40,099 nt of DNA from a virus: positions 1-40,099 of the IMG/VR virus record IMGVR_UViG_3300013137_000719; one strand, given 5' to 3'. The notes below the pieces were generated by a model. That model did no database searches and was not told where the DNA came from. It was given only the letters and a program-made list of their open reading frames with translations. The translations under genes were made by a program, and so were the position numbers. This document shows positions 2 to 40,099 of this stretch, piece by piece (position 1 is the stretch's first letter; every line of letters begins with the position of its first letter).

Positions 2-1312
2 GGGGATATGGGCTTAACCGGAGCCACTGGCCCACAAGGCGACACTGGCCCGACCGGCCCGCAGGGGCCGCAAGGTGATGTCGGAGCGACGGGGCCTCAA
101 GGCCCGCAAGGCGCTACTGGCCCAAACTGGACGACAAGCGCAGAGGCTCGCGCTTCGCTGAGCGATGAGAGCGGCACAGGTGCGATGCTGTTTGCCGGCG
201 GTGGGCCAGCGGGCACGGCTACCGCGCTTGCTGCTAATGCCGCAAATTGTAGCGGGAACAACTTTGCGCTCGGTGTTGATGCGAGTGGGGCGGGGGAATG
301 CGCTCAACCTGCCTTTAGTAACCTAAGTGGTTCAGCTACGGACGCACAGATCCCTAATACAATCACGATAGATAGCGCTTCTGCTGTAACACTCAACGCA
401 CAGAATACAGATAGTACTTCCTTTATCGTTATGGCTGATTCTGCCGGGGCAGGTACAGCACAAACCCCTCGAACAGATAATTCCCTTACTTTTGACGCTA
501 ACGTAAATACACTCCTAATACAGCCCGCCTTATTTGCTGATCTTCGACTTGGGTCATGGACAGCTAACGCTGGTTGGGCAGCAATATCCGTGCATGGTGA
601 TCTTGCTAATCCCAGTCTTTTTGGAACGTCTTTTGGGGGCGTAGGAAACCTCTACCTTGGACGCAAAACCGGGGGATCTATCTATATTACCGAAAATGGA
701 TCAACTGTCGGTGGGGCAGCATTTGCTCCTGCGGCGAGTAACGGTGGAATGACGTTGTATGGCGCAACTAGTGGGGGGGTAAAACTCGCACCAGCGCCGG
801 TTGCCGGTTCAGTTACAGCATATCTCCCCAATGCAACGTCTAAACTCGGTGGAACAATTCATACCGATATAGCTCCTATTGGTAACGTGCTAGGTGGAGC
901 TGATACCTTACAAACATGGACAATGCCTGCCGCCACATTGCGCGGAACTGTCGTCGGAGACTGGATTCGCATACGCACGGCGGTGACAATGGCTGCAAAC
1001 AGTAACACGAAAACCTTTCGTCTACTAGTAGGTAGTTACGTTCTCTATACAACAGGAGCAGCAGCTATAAATGGTGCAGATATTAGCATTGATGCACTAA
1101 TAATGGTAGATGGTGCTGCCACTGGAAAAACAATCGTGAGCGTTAACTCTGATGATACTAACGTACCAATAACAGCTAACTATGATAGGGCGATTGCAGA
1201 AACCTGGGCAAACACGATTGTAATTAAGGGAGAAGGCACTAGCGCTGCCAATACATCATCGGATGTGGTTCAAATGATGCTACTTGTCGAATACGGGCAG
1301 GGCGGACTATAA
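2..1312 (+). CDS. Collagen-like phage tail fibre protein, 5'-partial
   Basis: The reading frame is open from base 2 and the first codons (G-D-M-G-L-T) already follow the Gly-X-Y pattern, so the ATG at base 8 is probably internal and the gene starts upstream of the window. About 14 collagen triplets (GPQ, GAT, GDT, GPT) open the visible part. They are followed by a spacer containing [12 protein letters not shown] and GVDASGAG, a motif style common in phage and prophage tail fibres, and then by about 300 residues of low-complexity beta-rich sequence rich in Gly, Ala, Thr and Asn. Gly-X-Y stretches in phage fibres form trimeric collagen-like stalks; trimerisation here is inferred. The next gene follows after 12 bp with an AGGAG site. 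The first 300 bases are much more GC-rich than the rest, as expected for Gly/Pro codons. Receptor specificity cannot be read from the sequence. Confidence 0.8.
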
Positions 1313-1324
1313 AAGGAGATAATT

Positions 1325-2443
1325 ATGAGCACTACACTACACATTGGCACGGATACATATCGTCTGGATAAATTCCCGTTACCAGCAACTACTGAGACTA
1401 ATCCAGCACCACTTGATATTTGTATCAATAACGGTTATGCTTATTGTTCTTGTGAATTTGATCGTAAATTTTACCGAGTAGCACTTAATGCTCTAGATAA
1501 TACAACTTGTGAAGCTATTGCTATTCCTCGTCCCAGTTCAATTTTTCGTTTAACATTATTCAATCAAGACAATCCCTCTCTAATTGCCGCACACGAAAAT
1601 GTACGAACTGATGCTGCTGGTGTTATCTGGATGTCTGAATGTGGGGCATTACCTTATATGGGACGTAATTTAAATGCATCAAGAGTTATACGATATGATC
1701 CCAACAATAGCTCTACTGAAGCCTTTTCCCTTCCCTTTGACAACGCTGGTGTAGTAGGGCTGTATATAGACGGGGCTCGTCTTTGGGTAACGTGTGCATC
1801 GCCACAAGTAGGGGCACAACTACTAGTAACACGTCCCGCTTCTTGGCCACGTAGTTTAACTTCCCCTTCTAGTATGCCAGGAACTATTCCTCAAGGAACT
1901 GAGCTAGCGGGCTGGCGATCTCTTACTCTTCCCGGTACATTCCCCGCGCATATGACTATTGGCCCCGATGGACGATTATGGATAACGTGCTATTGGTCTA
2001 ATTCCGTACTTGCAGTTAACCGAGATACCTTAGCGATACAATCATATCCGCTTCCTGCAACCACCTTACCACTAGGTCGTGGTCCGTGGCAACTTACTTT
2101 CGATCTAGGGGGTGGGTTATGGGTATCTTGTGACAACGCGCGAGAAATAGCGAAACTCATACCCTCTACAGGAGAGTGGATAGTATATCCTACCGGTTGT
2201 AATGATAATGACCAAGTACACTCCCTTGCTATAAACGGGGGCTCAATATGGTTTACTGCTTATGGGGTCTTAAGCGGTGGGCGTATTGGACGACGAACGG
2301 CGACTGGTATAATGGAACTCTCTGAACCCTTTGATAGCGTTGGTCTACCTAAAGGAGCAGCAGGTATTGCCTTTGACTATACCGGCGCAATTTGGATCTC
2401 CCTATTTGGGAGCCAAGCAATAGGGAGACTCACAAAAATATAA
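1325..2443 (+). CDS. Beta-propeller protein resembling virginiamycin B lyase / NHL-SMP-30 folds
   Basis: This 372-residue protein has recurring blades of the type G-x-L/I-W-x-T/S-C: RLWVTCAS, RLWITCYWSN, GLWVSCDNA, SIWFTAYG and AIWISLFGS. They are spaced about 45-60 residues apart and often followed by a 'xIxRxxxxTG' strand. That is the signature of Vgb-like six- or seven-bladed propellers. Lyase activity is not implied, because this fold is widely reused. No signal peptide is visible. It lies 12 bp after the collagen-like fibre with its own AGGAG (AAAGGAGATAATT then ATG), so I infer a virion surface or receptor-binding accessory expressed with the fibre. A host-derived enzyme is a less likely alternative. 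Confidence 0.7.
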   Translation: MSTTLHIGTDTYRLDKFPLPATTETNPAPLDICINNGYAYCSCEFDRKFYRVALNALDNTTCEAIAIPRPSSIFRLTLFNQDNPSLIAAHENVRTDAAGVIWMSECGALPYMGRNLNASRVIRYDPNNSSTEAFSLPFDNAGVVGLYIDGARLWVTCASPQVGAQLLVTRPASWPRSLTSPSSMPGTIPQGTELAGWRSLTLPGTFPAHMTIGPDGRLWITCYWSNSVLAVNRDTLAIQSYPLPATTLPLGRGPWQLTFDLGGGLWVSCDNAREIAKLIPSTGEWIVYPTGCNDNDQVHSLAINGGSIWFTAYGVLSGGRIGRRTATGIMELSEPFDSVGLPKGAAGIAFDYTGAIWISLFGSQAIGRLTKI

Positions 2444-11354: not shown

Positions 11355-11541
11355 CTTTGGCTTTCTCCGTTTCCTGGATTCGTGCCTTTTCCAATCGGTC
11401 ACTGGCTATTGTAGCATCCTTTTGGGCAACGGACGACTCTAATTTTCGTATTCGTGCCTCTAAGTAACGTCTGTAAAGTGCAGAAATCATCGCGGGAAGC
11501 CCCGCGATGAAGCCCAATATTTTAAGTATAGTTACGGTCAT
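11284..11541 (-). CDS. i-spanin (inner-membrane, Rz-like)
   Basis: The 85-residue protein has a single N-terminal hydrophobic segment (about residues 5-22, ILKILGFIAGLPAMISAL) and then a charged helical or coiled-coil region (about 28-70), as expected for a signal-anchored i-spanin with a periplasmic coiled coil. It is short for the family. The assignment rests largely on the overlap with a lipoprotein gene in another frame and the holin candidate just upstream. The start overlaps the upstream stop (CCATGACC). Confidence 0.7.
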   Translation of the reverse strand: MTVTILKILGFIAGLPAMISALYRRYLEARIRKLESSVAQKDATIASDRLEKARIQETEKAKDGVKQDAKTQTLSDIANYFNTPQ

Positions 11542-11846: not shown

Positions 11847-12139
11847 TACTTTTTTTGTGCGTTAACTACTGTTTCGATAATTAAGTTAAGAACGGATAGT
11901 CCTGCATTAATTCCTTCAGTAATTGCGATTTGTTCTAATTTATTTAGTACCATTTGTTTCTTCTCATTAGAAGAAAGACCAGAAGCCTCTGCTTCTCCCA
12001 CTGCGATTTTTGCTTGTTCTGTAAGCAGTTCAACTCCTGTAGCTGCTACCCGAGCAAAAATATTCCGTACTGCGGTCTGCAATACCGCTACGAAACCACT
12101 ACCAATAAACCATTGCTTTATCTTTGTAAAAAATGACAT
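11846..12139 (-). CDS. Small amphipathic protein, first gene of the lysis group
   Basis: The 97-residue protein begins with MSFFTKIKQWFIGSGFVAVL, a weakly hydrophobic, amphipathic helix. A helical central part rich in Ala and Glu follows, then a second hydrophobic helix (INAGLSVLNLIIETVV). It vaguely resembles LLH-type holins, but the membrane segments are weak. A strong AAGGAG lies 9 nt upstream of the ATG, and an extended -10 (TG-C-TATAAT) sits just upstream, so expression probably starts here. I read it as a lysis accessory or second holin candidate. Confidence 0.55.
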   Translation of the reverse strand: MSFFTKIKQWFIGSGFVAVLQTAVRNIFARVAATGVELLTEQAKIAVGEAEASGLSSNEKKQMVLNKLEQIAITEGINAGLSVLNLIIETVVNAQKK

Positions 12140-28922: not shown

Positions 28923-29330
28923 CTATGCTCCTATTTTTCGAACTATCCATAAATTACTTAATACATAAAGATAACGTTTTCCATAAATTCCACTTGCGTC
29001 TGTAATCCCATTATCTTCCTTAATTACAAAATTTCCTAAGTCGGTATTATACCGATTATTATTGATTATATCATAGAAAGTTGTATAGACTTTATTAGCC
29101 TCATCTAGACTACTTTCAGAGACGTAATTGGTCTGAAAAAGGTAAGTCTTAACTGGATACTGATCTCGGTTTGGGCTTGAGGTTAATAGGTGGAAGGAGA
29201 TTAAAGGAAAAACTAACTCTTCGTTTAATTGAACCAACTGAGGACGAAAACGGTCCCCTATTAGTGCGTAGAGATTCCCATCATTTTGGGCCTCAAACTT
29301 CAATTTATGTACAATATCTAGATAATCCAT
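28923..29330 (-). CDS. Tail terminator/tail completion protein
   Basis: The 135-residue protein (MDYLDIVHKLKFEAQNDGNL, later QLVQLNEELVFPLISFHLL and SLDEANKVYTTFYDIINNN) resembles DUF3168/gpU-like tail completion proteins that cap the tube and join it to the head. It comes after the HK97-gp10-like gene and before the tail tube gene, the usual position. The ATG overlaps the preceding stop (TAATG). An extended -10 motif lies upstream within the previous gene. Confidence 0.6.
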   Translation of the reverse strand: MDYLDIVHKLKFEAQNDGNLYALIGDRFRPQLVQLNEELVFPLISFHLLTSSPNRDQYPVKTYLFQTNYVSESSLDEANKVYTTFYDIINNNRYNTDLGNFVIKEDNGITDASGIYGKRYLYVLSNLWIVRKIGA

Positions 29331-30078: not shown

Positions 30079-32481
30079 TTATTTACCAATCTTCTCTGGA
30101 ATTATGGGTTCATATTTCCAGGGATGCAGGGTTGAGTACAACTGTTGGAGTACATTCCTTACATCAGGTTCAGCCGGAAGTCCTTGACAATCTTTCACCG
30201 TATCGTATGCCCGATTCAAATGAATCATAGTCTGTTCAATCCTAGGACGAATAAACTTCGGACGTATTTGCATACTTTTCTCGAGTAAAACTAAAGCCTC
30301 TGGAATACGTCCAAAATTACGATAATGTAAAGCTAACTCAAACATTGCTTTAGCATTATCCGGATGTTCTTCTAATTCCTTCTCAAGTAATCTTCCGTAG
30401 AATTCTAACTTGTTCTTAATAGTATCCTTATCTGTTAGGAAACCAGGATTGAATACTTTAAGATGAAGATCCTGGTGAGTAAAGAAAGGTAGTTCTTCAA
30501 TACTCTTGTCTAAAGTCTCATGTACTCGCCCATAATAATAAAAACGCGATAAATCACGTTTAAAGAGTCTAGGTTGTTTAATTATCTGTGTACGTCCATC
30601 ATTATGCTGTGTCTCAAGATGCTGTAAGCAAACATCTGGACCGGTATTCAACATAGTGATAATCTTCTCAGGACCATGTTGTTCCATGATTTCATCTGCA
30701 TCGATATGCATAATATAATCTTGTGTTGATTTCTCAATCATAAAATTTCTAATCTCAGAGAAGTTCTCGTTAAAAGGTTTTTCAAGATAAGAGATCCCTA
30801 CTGAATCTAAGAACTCTTTTGTCTTATCGGTAGATCCGGTATCTACAATAACCCATTCACGCACAATACCACCAAAAGTAAGAAGATGCCTTCCTATATT
30901 TACTTCTTCATTCTTTACCATTAAATTAATAGAAAGTGAAAAAGGTTTAGGAACAATCATATCAATATCTACTTCATTCGTTAAATGAGTATAATCAGCA
31001 CTTCCAGCGGTTAACTTCTGTACCTGGGGAGGTGTATTATCGTGGTCTCGATACCACTGTTGTTTACGAATAATTTCATCCGAATCTATATAACCATAAT
31101 GATTAATAACCAAATCACTCATAATAAAAGCGTTATTAGGAATAGACATGGGACGATTTCCACAATGCAAACCAGTATCATCGGGGCCATAATGGGGGCG
31201 AAGTGTAATAGGAAAAAGATGATTCTTCCATAAACGAGTGAAGAAGCCCTTTCCCCAAGACCCATCTACTCTAGCCATAGAATCACATCGCCAATAATTG
31301 TTAAAAAGACTACGATAACCAAAAACTGCTGGATTAATAGGATTCAATAGTTCTTTAAAACGAGTTATAGGATAATTAGGATCAATACACTCATCGTGAT
31401 CCATCAATAAAACCCAGTCTTCTGGCGAAGCATTCGCAGCATTCATTAAAGTTAATCGATCCCGAATCTCATCAAAAGGAAGTTCTTTCTTATTTGTTAA
31501 GAAGGTAGATAATTTATCTCCGAATATTTCTTTAAGATTATTCAAAGTAAATTTTGGATGTGTTGACTTATCGGAGAGAATAATAACACGATCTACATAT
31601 CGTTCATTTACCTTTGCACATCGTATAAAAAGATCATATTGTTTATCAGAGTCTATTTTAACCCGTTGAATCATTACAACCTTATTATCATTTACTTCTC
31701 GAAACTTCTTTATATACTTAGGCCAATTACGTACACCCCCCCTCATTTCTGGATTGTATTTATTAGTAGTTACACTTCCATAATGATATACAAAAGTACG
31801 TTGGCTAATTAAAGCACCAAAACCAGCTTTAATTGCTCGAAGAACGAAATCATTATCACAAAATCCACCAGGAGAATACTGTTCATCGATATAACCTATT
31901 GTGTCCACTACTTCACGCTTTACCATCATGCAAAAACCTGAAAGGAATACAGTTGTGTCTTCAAAACCATACGTCTTACCAAATTGATCTTTAGCTCTAA
32001 ATCGTCCACAATAACTCTTTAAGTAGTTCATGGCTACTGGAATATCCTCCGGTCCACGAATAACTGCTTCAGTAAAAGTCTGTTCACCTGCCGCACAATT
32101 AGACCTAGGGCCAACTAGTCCGATCTTGGGGTGATATAGATGCTCCGTTTCCATCGAGTCTCGCATTTCCTCGAGCCAATTTGGCGCTACTACTGTATCA
32201 TCATTTAACCAAATTAAATAAGGCCCCGTAGCCGCTTTTAATCCTATATTTTGTGCAATACAAAAACCTTGATTACTATCTAATCGAATAAATCTAAAAC
32301 AGTCCCCAAGGACTTTCTTGTATTCTTCACAAACACGAGGAGTTACATCAGTAGAACCATTATCTACTATAATAATCTCTGTTTGTTTCATATCTGAACA
32401 TTGTGTAATAGAATCAATACATCCAATTAATTGGATGTAGTTATTGTACGTCGGTATACATACCGAATATGTGAAACTCAT
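30079..32481 (-). CDS. Three-module GT2-family glycosyltransferase with TPR
   Basis: This 800-residue protein contains three GT-A-like modules. Module 1 (about 1-250) has CIPTYNNY, DNGSTDVT, NQGFCIAQNIGL and the metal-binding LNDDT. Module 2 (about 280-480) has VIILSDKS and LLMDHDECIDP. Module 3 (about 515-700) has INLMVKNEEVNIGRHL, VDTGSTDKT and HIDADEI, resembling SunS-type transferases. A TPR-like helix pair follows (MFELALHYRNFGRIPEALVL). It would transfer sugars to protein, glycan or lipid acceptors; which one is not readable. It is embedded in the head-tail operon between the adaptor and gp10-like genes, preceded by TTAGGAGA. Virion-protein glycosylation is my leading inference; modification of host surface glycans is the alternative. 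Confidence 0.8.
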   Translation of the reverse strand: MSFTYSVCIPTYNNYIQLIGCIDSITQCSDMKQTEIIIVDNGSTDVTPRVCEEYKKVLGDCFRFIRLDSNQGFCIAQNIGLKAATGPYLIWLNDDTVVAPNWLEEMRDSMETEHLYHPKIGLVGPRSNCAAGEQTFTEAVIRGPEDIPVAMNYLKSYCGRFRAKDQFGKTYGFEDTTVFLSGFCMMVKREVVDTIGYIDEQYSPGGFCDNDFVLRAIKAGFGALISQRTFVYHYGSVTTNKYNPEMRGGVRNWPKYIKKFREVNDNKVVMIQRVKIDSDKQYDLFIRCAKVNERYVDRVIILSDKSTHPKFTLNNLKEIFGDKLSTFLTNKKELPFDEIRDRLTLMNAANASPEDWVLLMDHDECIDPNYPITRFKELLNPINPAVFGYRSLFNNYWRCDSMARVDGSWGKGFFTRLWKNHLFPITLRPHYGPDDTGLHCGNRPMSIPNNAFIMSDLVINHYGYIDSDEIIRKQQWYRDHDNTPPQVQKLTAGSADYTHLTNEVDIDMIVPKPFSLSINLMVKNEEVNIGRHLLTFGGIVREWVIVDTGSTDKTKEFLDSVGISYLEKPFNENFSEIRNFMIEKSTQDYIMHIDADEIMEQHGPEKIITMLNTGPDVCLQHLETQHNDGRTQIIKQPRLFKRDLSRFYYYGRVHETLDKSIEELPFFTHQDLHLKVFNPGFLTDKDTIKNKLEFYGRLLEKELEEHPDNAKAMFELALHYRNFGRIPEALVLLEKSMQIRPKFIRPRIEQTMIHLNRAYDTVKDCQGLPAEPDVRNVLQQLYSTLHPWKYEPIIPEKIGK

Positions 32482-32501: not shown

Positions 32502-33161
32502 TTATTGTATTTTTGCTATTTTAAGAACCGAATATACATATTTTACCCGATTGTAATATACATCAATATCGAGAACTCGATATTTCTTTGTAAGACCAAT
32601 GGATAAACCTGTATCTACATCTAACATGGAAACGTCTAGTACCCAAGGAGGGTCGCCCGCCTCTGGTACTATAATATCATTAACTAACACAAACTCTTCA
32701 TTACAAGCAATATAACAAATCGCTTCGTCTGGTTTTTGTTCTCCTACGGGTGAAAAGAAAGGAGTACCTGGGCCTATATTTTCAAACCGGGCAGGAACAC
32801 CTACTTGAACCGTGGCTTCTGTCATAGTAGGTTGACCGCTACGCCCTTGAACAGAGGCTGTTACATATGAAGCAGTCCCACTTGTAGCTTCAAGCGAAAG
32901 TAATTCTGTCCAACTCTTTGATGTTATTTTTCTACCGGGGGCATCTCCAGTAAATGTAATCGTCTCTGAAGACGTTACCCCATTCAATAAACCGGTCACT
33001 ACAAATATTCCATTACCATTGGGAATCTTTAAATCTACTACAACGGGTTGAGTATAAGTTAATCCAATAGTATGTGTTTGTCCAAGTACACCTTGATTAA
33101 TCAAGGTAGACGTAGGTCTAAAAATAGCTACGGTATGACTGAATAAGGATCGTATTCGCAT
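32502..33161 (-). CDS. Head-tail adaptor protein
   Basis: The 219-residue beta-rich protein follows the gp6-like connector gene with a TAATG overlap, the position of head-tail adaptor or stopper genes in HK97-like phages. The N-terminus (MRIRSLFSHTVAIFRPT) and C-terminus (KKYRVLDIDVYYNRVKYVYS) resemble small beta-barrel adaptors. The middle (about 35-110) contains an extra beta segment (GIFVVTGLLNGVTSSETITF) that may be an added decoration. Assigned mainly by position. Confidence 0.5.
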   Translation of the reverse strand: MRIRSLFSHTVAIFRPTSTLINQGVLGQTHTIGLTYTQPVVVDLKIPNGNGIFVVTGLLNGVTSSETITFTGDAPGRKITSKSWTELLSLEATSGTASYVTASVQGRSGQPTMTEATVQVGVPARFENIGPGTPFFSPVGEQKPDEAICYIACNEEFVLVNDIIVPEAGDPPWVLDVSMLDVDTGLSIGLTKKYRVLDIDVYYNRVKYVYSVLKIAKIQ

Positions 33162-34027
33162 TAGATACTTCTATCGATATAACGATTAAGAGTGGCTGCT
33201 ATAGATGAATCTGAGGTTAATAAGAAATCATCACGATAAGTAACACTATAAGAACCAATAGATTCTTGTTTAACCCCTTCTTGTTGTCTTGCATTATAAC
33301 CAGCACTTACCAATTTCATAGCAACTAATTTAACATCTTCAGGTACTTGTTTATATCCTGCTTTATAGGTAATAGCAATTGGTACAGGCGCCACGGGAAA
33401 CTTAATTCCATCTACTCTGTGAACATATCCCTCGCGTTCTGCGATATAGGTACTATAGCTTCCTAGTGTAGCATCTAAAGTCACACCGTCAACTAATATT
33501 GATTGGATATTGTCTACTGGGAAATTGGTGAGTTTAATCCTATCGGAAGCCTCATCTAAATAAATGAGGTCTGTATAAGTCGCATATAAGAACCGACGCC
33601 CTGTGATTCGATAAATGGCCCGATCACTAGCGCGCAATAAGCTAAGTAAAATTGCATCGTAATTTACCACCGGAATATCTAAGTATGTTTTTATTTCTTC
33701 AAGCGAAACTAAGGACTGTTCTTCAGCACTTACATATAGATAATTAGTTTTTACGTAAACATTTGAAGAAGCAGTAACTGCACCCGTCGATACCAAAATA
33801 CGATAAACGTTATCATCGTCACCCCCTTGCAAACGGAAAGAGACATCATCATCGGTCACGGAAAGCGAACTATCAATATACAAGGAACTTGTACTATCCC
33901 CATCCGTTTGTAGGTTGGTGATTGTTAAAGTTAGTCCTGCCTGAAGAATCGATTCAGTAACATCTAAAGTATCTGTAAATGAAACTGTAAAAGTCTGAAT
34001 ATCTAATGGTTTCTTATAGAAATACAT
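33161..34027 (-). CDS. gp6-like head-tail connector with N-terminal beta extension
   Basis: The C-terminal part (about 105-288) resembles HK97 gp6 connectors: LVSLEEIKTYLDIP, LLSLLRASDRAIYRITGRRF, then VAMKLVSAGYNARQQEGVKQ. The N-terminal 100 residues are an additional beta-rich Thr/Ser/Asp module (LDVTESILQAGLTLTITNL) not found in minimal gp6. The connector ring binds beneath the portal. The start overlaps the stop of the 33-residue gene by one base (TAATG), implying coupling. Confidence 0.65.
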   Translation of the reverse strand: MYFYKKPLDIQTFTVSFTDTLDVTESILQAGLTLTITNLQTDGDSTSSLYIDSSLSVTDDDVSFRLQGGDDDNVYRILVSTGAVTASSNVYVKTNYLYVSAEEQSLVSLEEIKTYLDIPVVNYDAILLSLLRASDRAIYRITGRRFLYATYTDLIYLDEASDRIKLTNFPVDNIQSILVDGVTLDATLGSYSTYIAEREGYVHRVDGIKFPVAPVPIAITYKAGYKQVPEDVKLVAMKLVSAGYNARQQEGVKQESIGSYSVTYRDDFLLTSDSSIAATLNRYIDRSI

Positions 34028-34128
34028 TATTTCGTCTTAATTCCTTTCTTTGAAACTAATCGATCCTTAGCTTTTAGGAGTTCCTTTTTCTGCTTTGTAT
34101 CAAGTTTTGGTTCAGTTTTCTTAGTCAT
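34027..34128 (-). CDS. 33-residue basic peptide from a leaderless promoter
   Basis: An ATG at 34128 opens MTKKTEPKLDTKQKKELLKA, then KDRLVSKKGIKTK, and stops in a TAATG overlap with the connector gene. TG-C-TATAAT lies 6 nt upstream of the ATG and no Shine-Dalgarno is present. The Lys-rich helix may have its own role, or the frame may act as a leader peptide delivering ribosomes to the connector gene. It lies right after the capsid gene terminator, so it is the first gene of a new transcript. Confidence 0.65.
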   Translation of the reverse strand: MTKKTEPKLDTKQKKELLKAKDRLVSKKGIKTK

Positions 34129-34134
34129 AGATCG

Positions 34135-34143
34135 ATTATAGCA
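34135..34143 (-). promoter_or_regulatory. Extended -10 promoter of the connector operon
   Basis: TG-C-TATAAT on the minus strand, immediately after the capsid terminator. The ATG at 34128 begins 6 nt past the -10, so the predicted transcript starts at the ATG. Confidence 0.65.
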
Positions 34144-34144
34144 T

Positions 34145-34176
34145 AAAAAGAAAGGGAAGCCTTTTGGGCTTCCCTT
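34145..34176 (-). terminator. Intrinsic terminator after the major capsid gene
   Basis: Minus strand: AAGGGAAGCC, loop CAAAA, GGCTTCCCTT (perfect 10-bp stem), followed by TCTTTTT. It is the clearest intrinsic terminator in the window and begins 28 bp past the capsid stop codon. It would isolate capsid transcription from the tail genes. Confidence 0.9.
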
Positions 34177-34203
34177 CCTAGAACTTAACCGATCTAATTT
34201 AGA

Positions 34204-35643
34204 TTAGGGGGTAATTCCTACACCAGCAGCGGCGATAGTATTCGTAGCACTGGGGGTATAAAGAGCCTTGTAATCTAAACGTTGAAGGGCAACCAACACA
34301 AGTTGGTCGGTCTCAATTACTTCACGGTTCTTCAACTGGATGTCACGCCAGTCCCCGAAGCTGAAGCAGTCTTTTCGGATAAGTAGAAGCTCAGTTTTTG
34401 AGCTAGTCCCCATATTCAAACCGGCTGCATCATATGTATCTGCTACATATGCTGAAATCACGATAGGAATACCGTCTAATGATCCGATCTGACCATTTAG
34501 AATCGTAGCACGAGCACCGAACTTGTCAACGGTAAGAACTTCCGTTAGGCCAAGCAGTTTGTGGTACCCGGAAACACCCGTAACATAAACAAGCTGATTC
34601 GTATCAACTCCATACTTACCCATAGCCTTACGAAGCTTACGCAGATTCGTAAGATCGAAGGTGGCTAGATCAACGGTCGTTGCAGCAAGCTGCGCGGCAC
34701 GTCGATAACCATTGTAAGCGGTAGTCTGCACGGTCCCAACAGTTACGCCGTCAATGTTTGACGAAAGGCGAACGTCTCCGTTAATAACTGTGTTTTCCTG
34801 TGCTTGTGCCAAAGAACGTGCAATCTTCTCACGAACGTAAGGAACCACTGCGACAATTGAGTCTTCGGTGATTTCCGTTGATAGAACGGAACGCACGCCG
34901 ACTTTCTTTGCCGTAAAGGTCAGATTGCCAGTTCCCGGTGATGCAGCAGGAACAAAGGCGCTAGTGTTAACTGAATCGTTATCACCAGTAGCCTGTGCAA
35001 CTACATAAGCTGAAATATCAGATCCTTCAACCGGGAAGGTGAAAGGATTGGTGGGCATATTGAAACGCGGATGTAGAGCTGCAACACGAAGGTCAAGCAT
35101 TACTTGCTGAATCATATTACGACTAAATCCGGTTGGAATCCATTCTGGGCCATAGCCTGTAGAACTATTATCCATGGCCTTATAAGCATTTGGGTACTTA
35201 TTAGCAATGTAGTTCTTTAGAGTACGGGATTGCCACGGGGTATTAATCCCTAATGCAACCATGCCAATATAAGCCTCGTCATTCGCCAGTTGAACTTCTT
35301 CATACATGGAATCACGAGTCGCCTTGACATTCAAAATGGATTTTAGACTAGCTGTATTCAGAATAGCACCATTACGGTCCTCGTCTGCCTCAAACTCTGC
35401 CTTACGGGCACCCTTCTCAGACTTCTGTAGAATATCGGTAAGAGCAGCAACTTCTGCTTCCATCTTAGCGATCTTTTCCTTATCGTCTGAACGCACTTCC
35501 CCATTTGAATGGGCCTTTGCTTGAGAAGCCTTTACGGCATCCGTCAGAGACTTGATCTCACCAGCGAGCTTTTCAAACGGATCGACGGTGGGAGCTACCG
35601 GAGTTGTAGCGGTGTCTTCTGTCTTTTTATCTTCATTCTCCAT
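34204..35643 (-). CDS. HK97-fold major capsid protein with N-terminal delta-like domain
   Basis: From the ATG at 35643 the protein has 479 residues. An acidic, coiled-coil N-terminal region (about 1-100, NEDKKTEDTATT then KEKIAKMEAEVAALTDILQK) acts like a delta/scaffold domain, normally cleaved by the upstream protease. The HK97 core follows: GYGPEWIPTGFSRNM, then VRSVLSTEITEDSIVAVVPY (E-loop/spine region) and GKYGVDTNQLVYVTGVSGYH, ending RLDYKALYTPSATN. An in-frame TTG at 35664 extends it by 7 residues; GGAGG lies 14 nt upstream of the ATG, so the start is not certain. It has its own promoter (35694-35702) and terminator, consistent with high independent expression. Confidence 0.88.
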   Translation of the reverse strand: MENEDKKTEDTATTPVAPTVDPFEKLAGEIKSLTDAVKASQAKAHSNGEVRSDDKEKIAKMEAEVAALTDILQKSEKGARKAEFEADEDRNGAILNTASLKSILNVKATRDSMYEEVQLANDEAYIGMVALGINTPWQSRTLKNYIANKYPNAYKAMDNSSTGYGPEWIPTGFSRNMIQQVMLDLRVAALHPRFNMPTNPFTFPVEGSDISAYVVAQATGDNDSVNTSAFVPAASPGTGNLTFTAKKVGVRSVLSTEITEDSIVAVVPYVREKIARSLAQAQENTVINGDVRLSSNIDGVTVGTVQTTAYNGYRRAAQLAATTVDLATFDLTNLRKLRKAMGKYGVDTNQLVYVTGVSGYHKLLGLTEVLTVDKFGARATILNGQIGSLDGIPIVISAYVADTYDAAGLNMGTSSKTELLLIRKDCFSFGDWRDIQLKNREVIETDQLVLVALQRLDYKALYTPSATNTIAAAGVGITP

Positions 35644-35693
35644 TTTATCTTGATTTTCCTCCAAGAAAAATTATTTGATCTACCCTTAAAAGA

Positions 35694-35702
35694 ATTATAA
35701 CA
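35694..35702 (-). promoter_or_regulatory. Extended -10 promoter of the capsid gene
   Basis: TG-T-TATAAT on the minus strand; the protease stop codon TAA lies inside the -10 hexamer. Predicted leader about 45 nt with GGAGG. Together with the terminator at 34145-34176 it defines a monocistronic capsid unit. Confidence 0.65.
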
Positions 35703-36633
35703 TATTCTTCTTAATATAATCGAATACGCCCGAATCTTCAAGTAACTTCTTAGTTTTAAGTATAAGATACTTGTTCTCGAGTTCTTTATATGTTAAGAAA
35801 AGGTTTTCATATTGTTTACTCTGGCGCGTCCGACGAGTGTCGAATTCTCCTATGATCTGATCTAGTTCATTGACAATCTGGTCTTGCTCGGCCAATTGAG
35901 TTTGGAGACTAATAACTTCAGCCTCCTTTTGTTCTAAAATAGTATTCAATGAATCAACCGCACTTTGGAGTGTACCTAGTTGAGCATCTTCGTCTACTTG
36001 ATTAATATCAGTCTCGGCCTCTTTTTCAAGATCCTTTGTTGGGGTCTCTTTTGAGGTCTTATCCAATGACTCAATTAAACTTTTATAAGTTATTACCTCT
36101 GTCTTATTTAAGCATTTAACTTTACTAAGCCCCATAGTCCCCATTTCAAACAATGAATCCGTATTCATCGGAATAGTTACAACTGATACTTCGTATAGTT
36201 CCAGATCCTTAATAAGCAGTTGGTCCGTATCTTCATTATATTCTACGACTATCGGACGAAAACCAATAGAAAAGGAACGTAAAATACCTTGACTAATTGC
36301 TTTCCATACCGTATCCGCAGGTTCAAAATCGCGTCCTATTTCAATCTCTACAAACAAACCAGCCCCACTGATTCTTGCTTGACGTACTTTACCAATTGGT
36401 TCATCCCATTCGTGATTATAGAATACAATAGGATTTTTAGTAAGGTAAGCATCCAAAGAACTCATAAAGGCCCCAGGATCAACTATTTCTTTGCTACGAT
36501 CCTCAATATAAGCATTCGCTAAACCAGAAATAACCCTGGCTGTAGTTCCATCACTGGCGACTTCTTTAACCTTGAGGTCATCTAATGAGTATGAGGCTAT
36601 CTTGCCTAGAATTGTGTTGATCTTTTCGTTCAT
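35695..36633 (-). CDS. HK97-type prohead protease (S78/U35) with C-terminal coiled coil
   Basis: The 312-residue protein carries the protease fold at its N-terminus, with H74 in YNHEWDEPIGK and S122 in LRSFSIGF (the conserved His and Ser of HK97-type proteases), and an acidic 'LYEVSVVTIPMN' strand. After about residue 190 it has a Glu/Gln/Leu-rich coiled coil (LDQIIGEFDTRRTRQSKQYE) that may act as an internal scaffold. It cleaves the capsid N-domain during maturation. TAGGAG precedes the ATG, and an extended -10 lies immediately upstream. Confidence 0.88.
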   Translation of the reverse strand: MNEKINTILGKIASYSLDDLKVKEVASDGTTARVISGLANAYIEDRSKEIVDPGAFMSSLDAYLTKNPIVFYNHEWDEPIGKVRQARISGAGLFVEIEIGRDFEPADTVWKAISQGILRSFSIGFRPIVVEYNEDTDQLLIKDLELYEVSVVTIPMNTDSLFEMGTMGLSKVKCLNKTEVITYKSLIESLDKTSKETPTKDLEKEAETDINQVDEDAQLGTLQSAVDSLNTILEQKEAEVISLQTQLAEQDQIVNELDQIIGEFDTRRTRQSKQYENLFLTYKELENKYLILKTKKLLEDSGVFDYIKKNML

Positions 36634-36644
36634 ATCGTCTCCTA

Positions 36645-36653
36645 ATTATACCA
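36645..36653 (-). promoter_or_regulatory. Extended -10 motif before the protease gene
   Basis: TG-G-TATAAT on the minus strand, with its 3' end 11 nt before the ATG at 36633. TAGGAG lies between, so a start 7 nt past the -10 would leave only a stub leader and cut off the Shine-Dalgarno. It may be a promoter for a near-leaderless mRNA or a coincidence. Confidence 0.45.
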
Positions 36654-36657
36654 TAGT

Positions 36658-38076
36658 TTATTTTACAGGTTTTCCTTCCTGGGGTGGGGTATTGGTGGGG
36701 GGAGGGTTTTTAGGATCGTTTATATCCAGTTCATTGGGATCTGGTTTATTAGGATCTTCTGGGGGTTCAGCTATAGACCCATCCACATTAATTACTGTTA
36801 GTGTTCCTTCCATAAAAGCTATTTCAGTAGATTTAAAAGGTTTCTTTTTTGGATAGACTTCTTTAAGAGCTTCCTCGAGTGGCCACCCATTACGTACTAG
36901 AATCTTATAAGTCTCAGCACGTTTAAACTTCATCTCATCTGTATCACTCAAAGCGGGGATATTTGAAGCGTCGGGAACAAGCATCCAATTCTCGGCAAAA
37001 GCTTGAACTAATTCAGTATTTAATTTATCCAGAACTTTACTAGATAAAGGCATAATAGTATTCGACCAGAAGAATACAATCTGTTCACGAATACCAGCAC
37101 TTCTACTAGAGGTATTTTCAAATTCATAAATACCAGCAATCGTAGGGGGTACCCCAAGTAAAGCTAAAATCTCCTCGCGATTTTGTCGGCGGAGCGCCGC
37201 AAAATCTAGATCTTTAGGATTAGGGGTAGTTTGCTTCCATTCAAGCCCCCCACTCATTATCATTACTTTACCTACTTTACTACGTCCCTCATAGTTTTCT
37301 TTGAGTTCTTTTCGAATCCTTTTAAATTCTTCTTGGTTGATACCTTCTTTACAGACGATAATACCAGAAGGCCAAGTAGCATTTTTAAAATAAGCACTAT
37401 TCCAATCAACAGCGTGCCAATCGGCTTGAATAGCAGATCTTGCTGCGGCGATTTTCGATAACCCATAACGAGACTCTCCCCGAGGATCGAAGTATTTAAT
37501 ATGAATGATCTCCTCTGGTTTGAATTTAACTTCTTTACCATTCACAATATAACGATATCCTTTTACAAAGTTCTTTGTATCGGGAACCACGGTCATATTT
37601 TTAGGGTTTAGAACGTATAATTCAGAGATATTTTGTCCTTTTCCAACTTTTTCTATATAAGCATTACCGGTTAAGATAAGATGTAAAGCAACAGCCTCCT
37701 TAAATTCATTCTGGTTCATCCATGGGTTAGGATTAGCTAAAAGATTAAGTAACTTAGTGGCGATTCTACCCTTAACATCATTATTCGCCTCTCCTTCTTT
37801 CTTCTTGTCTACTAAGCGGAAATCAATCTGACTGAATCCCTCTACAATTCTGGATACTCCTACGTGGAGCCAGATAGAATTGGGATACTTTCTTAGTTGG
37901 ATTTCAGAGGGCTCAACACGATAATCGACTATATCCGATCCACCGGGTTGAATAAATAGATTTGAGGACGTATTAGTATCTTCATTTATGAGGGCACTAG
38001 CACGAGATGCCTTAGTGTCAATTACCTCTAAATCAAATACTGGTTTATTAAAAATTGAACCTATATTCCACTTCAT
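36658..38076 (-). CDS. HK97-family portal protein
   Basis: The 472-residue protein has typical portal blocks: LNLLANPNPWMNQNEFKEAV, then NAYIEKVGKGQNISELYVLN, IIHIKYFDPRGE, SRYGLSKIAAARSAIQADWH, and LLGVPPTIAGIYEFENTS. The last motif (LGVPP) is a hallmark of phage_portal family proteins. The C-terminus is a Pro-rich acidic tail (EPPEDPNKPDPNE), probably flexible. It forms the dodecameric DNA channel at one capsid vertex. The ATG has no Shine-Dalgarno; TG-T-TATAAT ends 7 nt upstream, so it is predicted to be leaderless. It follows the terminase nuclease gene directly. Confidence 0.9.
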   Translation of the reverse strand: MKWNIGSIFNKPVFDLEVIDTKASRASALINEDTNTSSNLFIQPGGSDIVDYRVEPSEIQLRKYPNSIWLHVGVSRIVEGFSQIDFRLVDKKKEGEANNDVKGRIATKLLNLLANPNPWMNQNEFKEAVALHLILTGNAYIEKVGKGQNISELYVLNPKNMTVVPDTKNFVKGYRYIVNGKEVKFKPEEIIHIKYFDPRGESRYGLSKIAAARSAIQADWHAVDWNSAYFKNATWPSGIIVCKEGINQEEFKRIRKELKENYEGRSKVGKVMIMSGGLEWKQTTPNPKDLDFAALRRQNREEILALLGVPPTIAGIYEFENTSSRSAGIREQIVFFWSNTIMPLSSKVLDKLNTELVQAFAENWMLVPDASNIPALSDTDEMKFKRAETYKILVRNGWPLEEALKEVYPKKKPFKSTEIAFMEGTLTVINVDGSIAEPPEDPNKPDPNELDINDPKNPPPTNTPPQEGKPVK

Positions 38077-38083
38077 AAAGAAT

Positions 38084-38092
38084 ATTATAACA
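38084..38092 (-). promoter_or_regulatory. Extended -10 promoter of the portal gene (leaderless)
   Basis: TG-T-TATAAT on the minus strand directly after the terminase stop. The 7-nt gap to the ATG at 38076 puts the transcript start at or next to the start codon. No -35 and no Shine-Dalgarno. Confidence 0.7.
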
Positions 38093-38848
38093 TTAAATTA
38101 TGTAAATAGTCTTTTCTACTCGACTTTCTATATGACTGGCAGCAGCTCGAGCAAACCAACAGCTCATCAAAACATCGTCGTGTCTTCCTAAAGGATAAGT
38201 TTTAAGTTCCTGAAGAAGAATCTCCGTTGTTTCTCTACTTATTTTATTGCCAACAGGGAAAGTCCAACGTAAATGTTCTATTTCAATCGCTAGTCTAGGA
38301 AGACCAAATTCTAGATCAGTTTTCTTAATCGCGGTTGTAGTGAAAGGTTCGACGGGTAAGGCAGTTGTTCTAGTTAATTCCTGGACAAAGGCTTGTTGAT
38401 ATGCATTATTTTCTACATAAATATAAGTAGGATCTAAGAAATCAGCATAATTTTCTACCATTTGTAATTGTTGATTAAATGTTAAACCCCTATTTCTATA
38501 AAGGGTTACTAATGTTCTATGTTTAGTTTTAGGATCAACCATTATGCCAGTAATTACAAAATAGTCCCCGGAAGCCGATTTGGCAGCAATAGCTAGGTCT
38601 ACCCCCATAAAAGTAAAGCAGCCCTTTGGACAAAAGATCCCTTTATCATCTCCGGGGTAATAAAGAATATGCTTATTTGAGCAGCACTCATCAATATACT
38701 GTTCTTTAAAAACTACCTCTGAATCACTGAGGGCTATCTGCCGCCACCCCCGATCAAAGTCTCGAGCCCCGATTAAATCGCGTTTAGCCCTGAGAGATTC
38801 CTCGGACCAGAAATCCCAAAGAGGTATGTCCTTCTGGAGAATAGCCAT
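38093..38848 (-). CDS. Terminase large subunit, nuclease domain only
   Basis: The 251-residue protein begins in the linker that follows a TerL ATPase (PLWDFWSEESLRAKRDLIGA, then RDFDRGWRQIAL). It continues with the RNase H-like nuclease: FMGVDLAIAAKS (first Asp), TYIYVENNAYQQAFVQEL (Glu) and PLGRHDDVLMSCWFA (final Asp). The ATPase domain with Walker A/B is absent. The frame upstream of this ATG reaches a TAG within 50 bases with no other start. Full-length TerL proteins are usually 400-600 residues, so this is a split or truncated form, or the motor half is encoded elsewhere. It has its own leaderless promoter. It cuts concatemeric DNA during packaging. Confidence 0.8.
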   Translation of the reverse strand: MAILQKDIPLWDFWSEESLRAKRDLIGARDFDRGWRQIALSDSEVVFKEQYIDECCSNKHILYYPGDDKGIFCPKGCFTFMGVDLAIAAKSASGDYFVITGIMVDPKTKHRTLVTLYRNRGLTFNQQLQMVENYADFLDPTYIYVENNAYQQAFVQELTRTTALPVEPFTTTAIKKTDLEFGLPRLAIEIEHLRWTFPVGNKISRETTEILLQELKTYPLGRHDDVLMSCWFARAAASHIESRVEKTIYII

Positions 38849-38855
38849 TACTGAG

Positions 38856-38864
38856 AGTATAGCA
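38856..38864 (-). promoter_or_regulatory. Extended -10 promoter of the terminase nuclease gene (leaderless)
   Basis: TG-C-TATACT on the minus strand with 7 nt to the ATG. Its sequence through the start codon (CTCAGTAATG) closely matches that of the divergent gene at 39136 (CTCAGTCATG). Confidence 0.65.
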
Positions 38865-38871
38865 CAAAGCT

Positions 38872-38894
38872 CTAGGGGCTCCGTACACCCCTAG
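38872..38894. terminator. GC-rich hairpin with T-run, possible terminator
   Basis: CTAGGGG, 9-nt loop, CCCCTAG (perfect 7-bp stem, extendable by wobble pairs), followed by GCTTTT on the plus strand and by AGCTTTG on the minus strand. It sits between the terminase promoter and the left inverted-repeat arm. It could stop leftward read-through into the terminase unit or be part of a packaging or control site. Confidence 0.45.
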
Positions 38895-39074
38895 GCTTTT
38901 GCATAGAAGTGCTCCTAAATACGTACCCACTTTTACTAGGGCTGTTCTCTTCTCTTCTTCTTATATATTTAGAAGATTTTATTATTATTTAGAGAGTTAG
39001 AGCCCCAGGAACTGAGGGCTCTAGAACTCAAGCCAAAAGTGAGGACGCATTTAGGAGCACTTCTATGCAAAAGC
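38895..39074. repeat. 40-bp inverted repeat with 100-bp AT-rich spacer
   Basis: Left arm 38895-38934 and right arm 39035-39074 are inverted copies: 26 bp are perfect (38895-38920 with 39049-39074, starting GCTTTTGCATAG) and 37 of 40 match overall. The spacer has a pyrimidine tract (TTCTCTTCTCTTCTTCTT), an AT-rich stretch of TTA repeats, and an inner hairpin TAGAGCCC/GGGCTCTA. The region lies between divergent promoters next to the terminase. Candidate roles are a packaging or cos/pac-like site, an operator array, an origin, or ends of a mobile segment. No gene is seen between 38849 and 39135. Confidence 0.85.
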
Positions 39075-39121
39075 ACCCCCCCTCTTCTTTCCCAGAAACC
39101 CCTCGTCCCCCAGCCCTTCTG

Positions 39122-39130
39122 TGGTATCCT
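39122..39130 (+). promoter_or_regulatory. Extended -10 promoter of the HNH-like gene (leaderless)
   Basis: TG-G-TATCCT on the plus strand with 5 nt to the ATG at 39136. No Shine-Dalgarno. It shares TGTGGTATC with the recombination-cassette promoter. Confidence 0.6.
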
Positions 39131-39135
39131 CAGTC

Positions 39136-40017
39136 ATGCTGAAAGACCCTTCCCCCCAGCTTGAGGCTTGGCTCAATAGCAATCGGGGTGCGTGTTACCT
39201 ACCTACCGTTACTAGGGCTACCTCTGCCCGCGACCAAGAAGAGAAGTGGGTATCAGATGATATATGTTGGGTTTTGGCGGGGGCTCGGGATGACACTACC
39301 TGGTTTACTAAAGAAGAATGTCTTAAATTATTTGGAGATTCTAAATTAGAACAAGAATTTTTTGATCTTTATGATAGACGACTATATACGATACAATCTA
39401 TTTTAGATACTAAGTTAGACAAACATCCCCGACGTAAAGAAGAACGAGTTCTTTATGAATTTCGTTGGATAAATAATAAACGTATTCGTACCCTCGAGAA
39501 AAAACCTACCCATTTAGAACCTAAATATATAGGTAAAGAAGTGGCTGATGGTTATATTATTGAATCTTTACTTTATAAGTATACTCGAGATCGGTTAATC
39601 TTGTTATATGAAAAGAAGGATCTTCCCCTTGTCTATCATCCTACTAAGAAAGATAAGTATGCGGTCTATGCTGTCGTAGTTAAAAATAAAGATCGTAAAT
39701 GTATAAAACTTTGCAATTTACTTATCAAACATAATATAAACGACCAAAGATTTAAACATAATAAACGATATTCTTCGGAATATAAGATTTATACACATCT
39801 AAAAAATAGGAAAAAACCTATGGTTTGGTTATCGTTTCAAGACTTCTTACAGGATCTTCCTAAAAAACCAGATCCGATTGCTCGACTATATCGTCGTAAC
39901 AAAAAGTTACCATATAGTAAAGATAATATATATTGGAAGGTACCTATCCGATTACCTGAAATCCGGGATTCCGAGCTATATACTCTTCCTTTAGATGATC
40001 TGGAACTATCGCTCTGA
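39136..40017 (+). CDS. Putative degenerate HNH homing-endonuclease-like protein
   Basis: The 293-residue basic protein opposes the terminase operon. Its C-terminal 80 residues follow the outline of phage HNH endonucleases of the form 'PEYxxWxxMKxR...RWxxSFxxFLxDMGxxPxxxxxxRxxNxxxYxxxNCRWAT': SSEYKIYTHLKNRKKP, VWLSFQDFLQDLPKKPDP, then RRNKKLPYSKDNIYWKV. The Asp/His residues expected for catalysis (as in 'HSIDRIDN') appear lost, so activity is doubtful. The N-terminal 200 residues are unrecognised. I chose the ATG at 39136 over GTG 39121 because it sits exactly where a leaderless transcript would begin. It overlaps antisense the end of a leftward gene by 74 bp. Homing endonucleases often target terminase genes, which fits the neighbouring split TerL. 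Confidence 0.55.
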   Translation: MLKDPSPQLEAWLNSNRGACYLPTVTRATSARDQEEKWVSDDICWVLAGARDDTTWFTKEECLKLFGDSKLEQEFFDLYDRRLYTIQSILDTKLDKHPRRKEERVLYEFRWINNKRIRTLEKKPTHLEPKYIGKEVADGYIIESLLYKYTRDRLILLYEKKDLPLVYHPTKKDKYAVYAVVVKNKDRKCIKLCNLLIKHNINDQRFKHNKRYSSEYKIYTHLKNRKKPMVWLSFQDFLQDLPKKPDPIARLYRRNKKLPYSKDNIYWKVPIRLPEIRDSELYTLPLDDLELSL

Positions 40018-40099
40018 CTTCAATTCCAGTAAAATCTTCTTTAATAGCTTGAATTAAGATGCCATATTGATTCTTCATCTGTGGATTACTGAGGATCTC
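39944..40099 (-). CDS. C-terminal end of a leftward gene entering from the right edge
   Basis: An open frame of 51 codons on the minus strand runs from the window edge to TAG at 39944: EILSNPQMKNQYGILIQAIK, EDFTGIEVRAIVPDHLKEEY, IARNPGFQVIG. The portion from 40018 to 40099 has no competing gene and looks like ordinary protein. The last 74 bp overlap the HNH-like gene in antisense. I cannot name the family; a missing TerL ATPase half is tempting from position, but no Walker motif is in view. Confidence 0.5.
   Translation of the reverse strand, partial: EILSNPQMKNQYGILIQAIKEDFTGIEVRAIVPDHLKEEYIARNPGFQVIG

Follow-up and report, generated by a model that had tools for sequence, protein, structure and literature searches.

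Extended -10 promoter sequences abut the ATG codons of a 33-aa ORF (34128, minus strand) and of the portal gene (38076, minus strand) of this uncultured phage, and on balance the promoters of these two at least probably give RNAs that are leaderless or nearly so. Four genes were considered, and the cases are unequal; 34128 and 38076 are strong, the terminase nuclease ORF at 38848 (minus strand) is fair and the divergent ORF at 39136 (plus strand) is weak.

The window analysed is the entire IMG/VR virus record of 40,099 bases, which is probably a genome fragment. It has a G+C content of ~38%, and no tRNA or Rfam RNA was found in it. Recombination and replication-type genes lie on the plus strand at ~3.4-9.6 kb (gp32-like SSB, RecA, calcineurin-like phosphoesterase, SMC-type ATPase and PDDEXK nuclease), and the minus strand from ~9.6 to 38.8 kb carries the lysis, tail, head and packaging genes. 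The left end encodes a collagen-repeat protein (8-1312, plus strand) and a virginiamycin-B-lyase-like repeat protein (1325-2443, plus strand), and a protein of 800 aa (30079-32481, minus strand) carrying a pair of glycosyltransferase family 2 domains is found within the head-tail gene cluster. The best protein matches point to Geobacillus/Bacillus for portal and RecA, to a Vibrio-like source for the capsid and to Arthrobacter and Bacteroides phage for the terminase; since these matches scatter over several taxa, assignment of a host from gene content was dropped.

The original prediction placed an extended -10 element 5-7 nt before the ATG of four genes, and all four are present as described. 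Direct reading gives TG-C-TATACT-CTCAGTA-ATG at 38848 (minus strand, gap of 7 nt), TG-T-TATAAT-ATTCTTT-ATG at 38076 (minus strand, 7 nt), TG-C-TATAAT-CGATCT-ATG at 34128 (minus strand, 6 nt) and TG-G-TATCCT-CAGTC-ATG at 39136 (plus strand, 5 nt). The hexamer matches TATAAT exactly at 34143 and 38092, with one mismatch at 38864 and two at 39122, and at every site the TG of an extended -10 stands one base before it. Across bacteria, leaderless genes have been recognized by a TANNNT hexamer placed ~12 nt ahead of the start, counted from the first T (PMC3160421); here, the first T of the hexamer lies 11 nt (39136), 12 nt (34128) and 13 nt (38076 and 38848) before the start codon, all within the ~10-13 nt of leaderless spacing. 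It had also been claimed that none of the four has a Shine-Dalgarno (SD) sequence while most other genes do, and duplex energies with the 16S rRNA tail bear this out, being -1.5 (38848), +1.0 (38076), +0.7 (34128) and -2.9 kcal/mol (39136), as against -5 kcal/mol or lower at 18 of the 27 other gene starts. Sigma-70 scans paired no -35 partner with any of the four hexamers. From these directly observed sequences and spacings we infer promoter activity and the probable start sites. Judged by the published TANNNT pattern, the prediction of leaderless mRNAs is fair for 34128, 38076 and 38848 and overstated for 39136.

The gene at 34128 is set among the following features:
34149..34179, minus strand: predicted intrinsic terminator (13-bp stem and T-run), 3' of the capsid gene and just upstream of the 34143 promoter
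34135..34143, minus strand: extended -10 TGC-TATAAT, read in the sequence as part of TATGCTATAAT, 6 nt before the ATG
34027..34128, minus strand: lysine-rich ORF of 33 aa, whose stop overlaps the connector ATG (TAATG in the sequence)
33161..34027, minus strand: head-tail connector/adaptor, 288 aa (Pfam Phage_connect_1, E=3e-7; PHROG 442, E=8e-27)

The T-run of the predicted terminator (fold z-score -3.3) adjoins TATGCTATAAT directly, and the ATG at 34128 follows 6 nt beyond, a gap that makes the A of this ATG the preferred start. The promoter would thus restart transcription past the capsid terminator, and the leaderless 33-aa ORF may pass ribosomes to the connector gene through the stop-start overlap TAATG. 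The best SD-like stretch of the connector gene is badly placed and, if the 33-aa ORF were left untranslated, the connector RNA from this promoter would have a leader of ~100 nt. The 33-aa ORF gave no family match. Its likeness to a 101-aa MTKKK... ORF of contig L053 is confined to the first residues, without a BLAST match, and was not counted.

At the portal gene, the promoter lies between two late genes:
38084..38092, minus strand: extended -10 TGT-TATAAT, beginning one base past the terminase stop and 7 nt before the portal ATG
36658..38076, minus strand: portal protein, 472 aa, no SD (duplex energy as above, +1.0; Pfam Phage_portal, E=4e-62)

The stretch between terminase and portal is exactly TGTTATAATATTCTTT. 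The first base of RNA from this promoter would be the A of the ATG or the preceding T, and the promoter may provide extra portal RNA from inside an operon. It counts against a strictly leaderless reading that a 7-nt gap puts the usual start at the base before the AUG; since the promoter abuts the ATG, the RNA would be leaderless or carry one or two extra bases. A 5'-terminal RTG on the mRNA suffices for translation in mycobacteria, where +1 starts seem more efficient than those at +2 to +5 (PMC4633059). In addition, this phage uses SD sequences elsewhere, so its host is not obviously rich in leaderless genes.

The third case concerns a partial terminase:
38856..38864, minus strand: extended -10 TGC-TATACT (TRTGn type), read in the sequence 7 nt before the ATG at 38848
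38093..38848, minus strand: ORF of 251 aa without an SD, limited to the nuclease (RNaseH-like) domain of the terminase large subunit

The ORF matches Pfam Terminase_6C (E=2e-5) and positions 484-699 of 760 in PHROG 38, and it aligns from ~residue 248 of the 529-aa fused TerL of contig L054, beginning at the ATPase-nuclease linker of that protein. No ATPase domain was recognized among the window proteins scanned; as the ORF holds the nuclease domain only, the ATPase half must lie beyond the contig or be encoded separately. Terminase genes split into ATPase and nuclease parts are annotated in an Arthrobacter phage. A split by an intron or a homing-endonuclease insertion was considered; an HNH-like ORF neighbours the nuclease half, and no Rfam intron was found in the window. 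On the terminase strand, a 51-aa open frame (39944-40099) runs off the right end of the contig, with no family match and no match to the L054 terminase.

These sites belong to a wider set. Exact TGNTATAAT occurs nine times in the window against 3.7 expected; eight of the nine are on the late-gene strand, mostly immediately 5' of genes. The gap from the exact site to the gene is 6 nt for the 33-aa ORF, 7 nt for portal, 11 nt for protease, 15 nt for the gene at 29330, 18 nt for the gene at 12139 and ~50 nt for capsid, and the TATACT variant stands 7 nt upstream of the terminase nuclease ORF. A longer TRTG form is seen at 34143, 35702, 36653 and 38864. Two of the sites precede genes with SD sequences:
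36645..36653, minus strand: extended -10 TGG-TATAAT, read in the sequence 11 nt before the protease ATG at 36633, with AGGAG between
35694..35702, minus strand: extended -10 TGT-TATAAT, read in the sequence 5' of the SD-bearing capsid gene

The leader predicted for the protease promoter at 36653 is only ~5 nt. As the SD of this gene lies between the -10 and the predicted start of its RNA, the promoter RNA would lack it and read-through RNA would contain it. A -10-like hexamer followed directly by an SD is seen at 36633 (minus strand), 2497 (plus strand) and 1325 (plus strand) as TATAATTAGGAG, TATAATAGGAG and TATAAAAGGAG, respectively; the SD would fall outside the RNA at all three if transcription began from those hexamers. 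Late-strand genes thus seem to be served by extended -10 promoters that lie close to each gene and give short leaders, with the leaderless candidates at the short extreme. Because the distances form a continuum from about 5 to 50 nt, dense gene packing may by itself account for some of the closest spacings. The arrangement suggests a late strand on which several host-type extended -10 promoters (TRTGnTATAAT), with no recognizable -35, stand before single genes. Three of them, at 34128, at 38076 and probably at 38848, adjoin the ATG, and translation there would proceed by recognition of the 5'-terminal AUG.

Translational coupling competes with leaderless initiation at 39136, where the relevant features are:
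39122..39130, plus strand: weak extended -10 TGG-TATCCT (4/6 match to TATAAT), 5 nt before the ATG at 39136
39136..40017, plus strand: divergent ORF, 293 aa, with a weakly HNH/restriction-endonuclease-like C-terminal part (PHROG 8790, E=0.004; PHROG 3377, E=0.025)
39065..39142, plus strand: SD-led ORF of 25 codons, with AGGAG at 39053 and a stop that overlaps the ATG at 39136 (ATGCTGA)
38895..38934, minus strand: left arm (40 nt) of an inverted repeat, 93% complementary, with the same SD and ATG
39035..39074, plus strand: right arm (40 nt) of the inverted repeat; an exact 15-nt core is common to both arms

For this gene, there is close to an even chance that ribosomes arrive by coupling from the SD-led 25-codon ORF, on RNA begun farther upstream in the 287-nt divergent region. 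The overlap of the stop of that ORF with the ATG makes coupling an equal rival here, and the -10 is only 4/6. Each arm reads AGGAG-N7-ATGCAAAAG, pointing outward toward the terminase nuclease ORF or the HNH-like ORF, so that SD and ATG, read directly, are the conserved core of both. On the 38848 side, the mirrored SD and ATG open a 10-codon ORF that ends ~24 nt before the start. However, a scan of 38849-39140 gave no sigma-70 promoter upstream, and the short ORFs are without known relatives. This estimate applies to 39136 only; coupling does not compete with the leaderless reading at 34128 and 38076. The arms together could form a very stable hairpin. With its poor -10, a gap one nucleotide short of the preferred start site and the overlapping SD-led ORF, 39136 is excluded from the leaderless claim. 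Its product looks weakly HNH-like, rather than like a known structural gene, and is therefore not to be counted with the structural genes.

For the remaining genes, it is rather unlikely, though a serious alternative, that the -10 sequences are active and yet most translation is by non-SD initiation on longer polycistronic RNAs, with leaderless RNAs a minor species. Ribosomes would then re-initiate past an upstream stop in AU-rich, weakly structured RNA, as at portal, or be coupled. The portal start follows the terminase stop by 16 nt, with both genes on one strand and AU-rich sequence around them, many closely packed genes have weak SDs (5689, 11070, 11846, 28950 and 33161), and about half of the distant portal homologues lack both a strong SD and an adjacent -10. 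Against this, the TGnTATAAT motif in this register is improbable by chance, and 34128 sits after a strong predicted terminator, so that read-through there should be low. Leaderless or near-leaderless RNAs from the abutting promoters remain the preferred reading for 34128 and portal.

Polycistronic RNAs also bear on the suggestion that, through leaderless initiation, the translation of late genes depends on 70S ribosomes or host state, which was overstated; portal, connector and probably terminase can be read from such RNAs as well. That this dsDNA phage expresses packaging, portal and connector genes from separate abutting extended -10 promoters as leaderless mRNAs, with late ratios set by the host's 70S/leaderless capacity, is very doubtful. 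The neighbours of the leaderless candidates, protease and capsid, are SD-led.

Conservation of the spacing in relatives, proposed as a check, is not supported, and as far as the comparison reaches its outcome counts against the prediction. The spacing is absent from all 31 distinct portal homologues, all 5 of the connector and both of the terminase, which are only ~20-34% identical and too distant for a fair test; its absence is no refutation, since promoters change rapidly over such protein distances. Normal SDs precede portal, protease and capsid genes in L054, L053 and others, and ~770 kb of distantly related contigs gave a single comparable match at 5-8 nt (in L050), outside the homologous genes. 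No close relative was found in viral-contig scans with portal, capsid (alone and as an alignment), terminase, protease, SSB and glycosyltransferase, nor with the exact inverted-repeat DNA pattern, genome scans or a distant nucleotide search of GenBank phages; the closest match in these searches was a capsid identity of 47-48%, along part of the protein only.

The abutting placement is well above chance expectation. A loose motif, TGn followed by a hexamer with 5/6 or more of TATAAT, has 27 copies on the two strands of the whole window, and among the 31 gene starts counted it lies 5-8 nt upstream of three ATG genes and one GTG gene (11402, minus strand, a doubtful gene); the 39136 site (TATCCT, 4/6) falls below the threshold and outside the count. 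At 11402, TGCTACAAT stands 5 nt before the GTG of an ORF of 110 aa that overlaps a second frame; this may be chance, since much the same stretch, AAAGGATGCTGTAATAGCC, is seen again upstream of 11541. With gene starts displaced by 30-300 nt, a mean of 0.09 was expected at 5-8 nt and the maximum in 20,000 trials was 2, never 3; a first-order Markov model of the upstream regions gave a mean of 0.04 and never reached 3 or more, and within 2-25 nt of starts 7 were observed against 0.54 expected, all of these figures being a guide only because the test was defined once the sites were known. A scan of five control phages (lambda, Silence, sk1, Javan255 and A118) gave a few TTG/GTG matches and a single one at an ATG, which lies 98 codons into an open frame. 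It is very improbable that AT-rich compact phage DNA supplied these -10-like sequences near starts by accident, even with a G+C of 38%, 27 loose matches in the window and a pattern chosen by eye, since neither control reached three and the AT-rich phages of similar size, Silence, sk1 and A118, contain 23-40 loose matches, none of them in register with the ATG of a gene.

If confirmed, this phage would give a clear example of virion genes expressed without leaders, from host-type promoters within a late operon, and of a short leaderless ORF that feeds the gene after it. It would then also be a warning for gene callers that require an SD. The mRNA of lambda cI from PRM begins at the AUG. It is likewise a phage gene, but a regulatory one with an activated promoter whose site fails the TGnTATAAT scan, whereas structural and packaging genes are concerned here. 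The original view that such use would be unusual was overstated, as leaderless genes are widespread in bacteria and a study of AR9 describes phage transcripts as 'often leaderless' (PMC5312081). The closest parallels are the '-10 region adjacent to ORF' genes of Deinococcus-Thermus, in which the pattern was tested by mutation in Deinococcus (PMC12340547), and the TA-led genes (PMC3160421); these share TANNNT/TATAAT a few bp upstream, the absence of an SD, a dispensable -35 and an expected leaderless mRNA. They are supported by mutation and reporters and are genome-wide, whereas here a few candidate genes of one phage have the extended TGn motif. Mycobacteria have leaderless short ORFs that lie upstream of annotated genes and overlap them, in which the stop of the short ORF overlaps the next start as at 34128/34027 (PMC4633059); those have ribosome profiling support, whereas this phage is mostly an SD user for which we infer leaderless translation, and coupling to the next gene, from its predicted promoters. 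As -10-adjacent leaderless genes are known to be widespread, the general picture is unchanged, and the phage is a plausible further example rather than a new kind of system.
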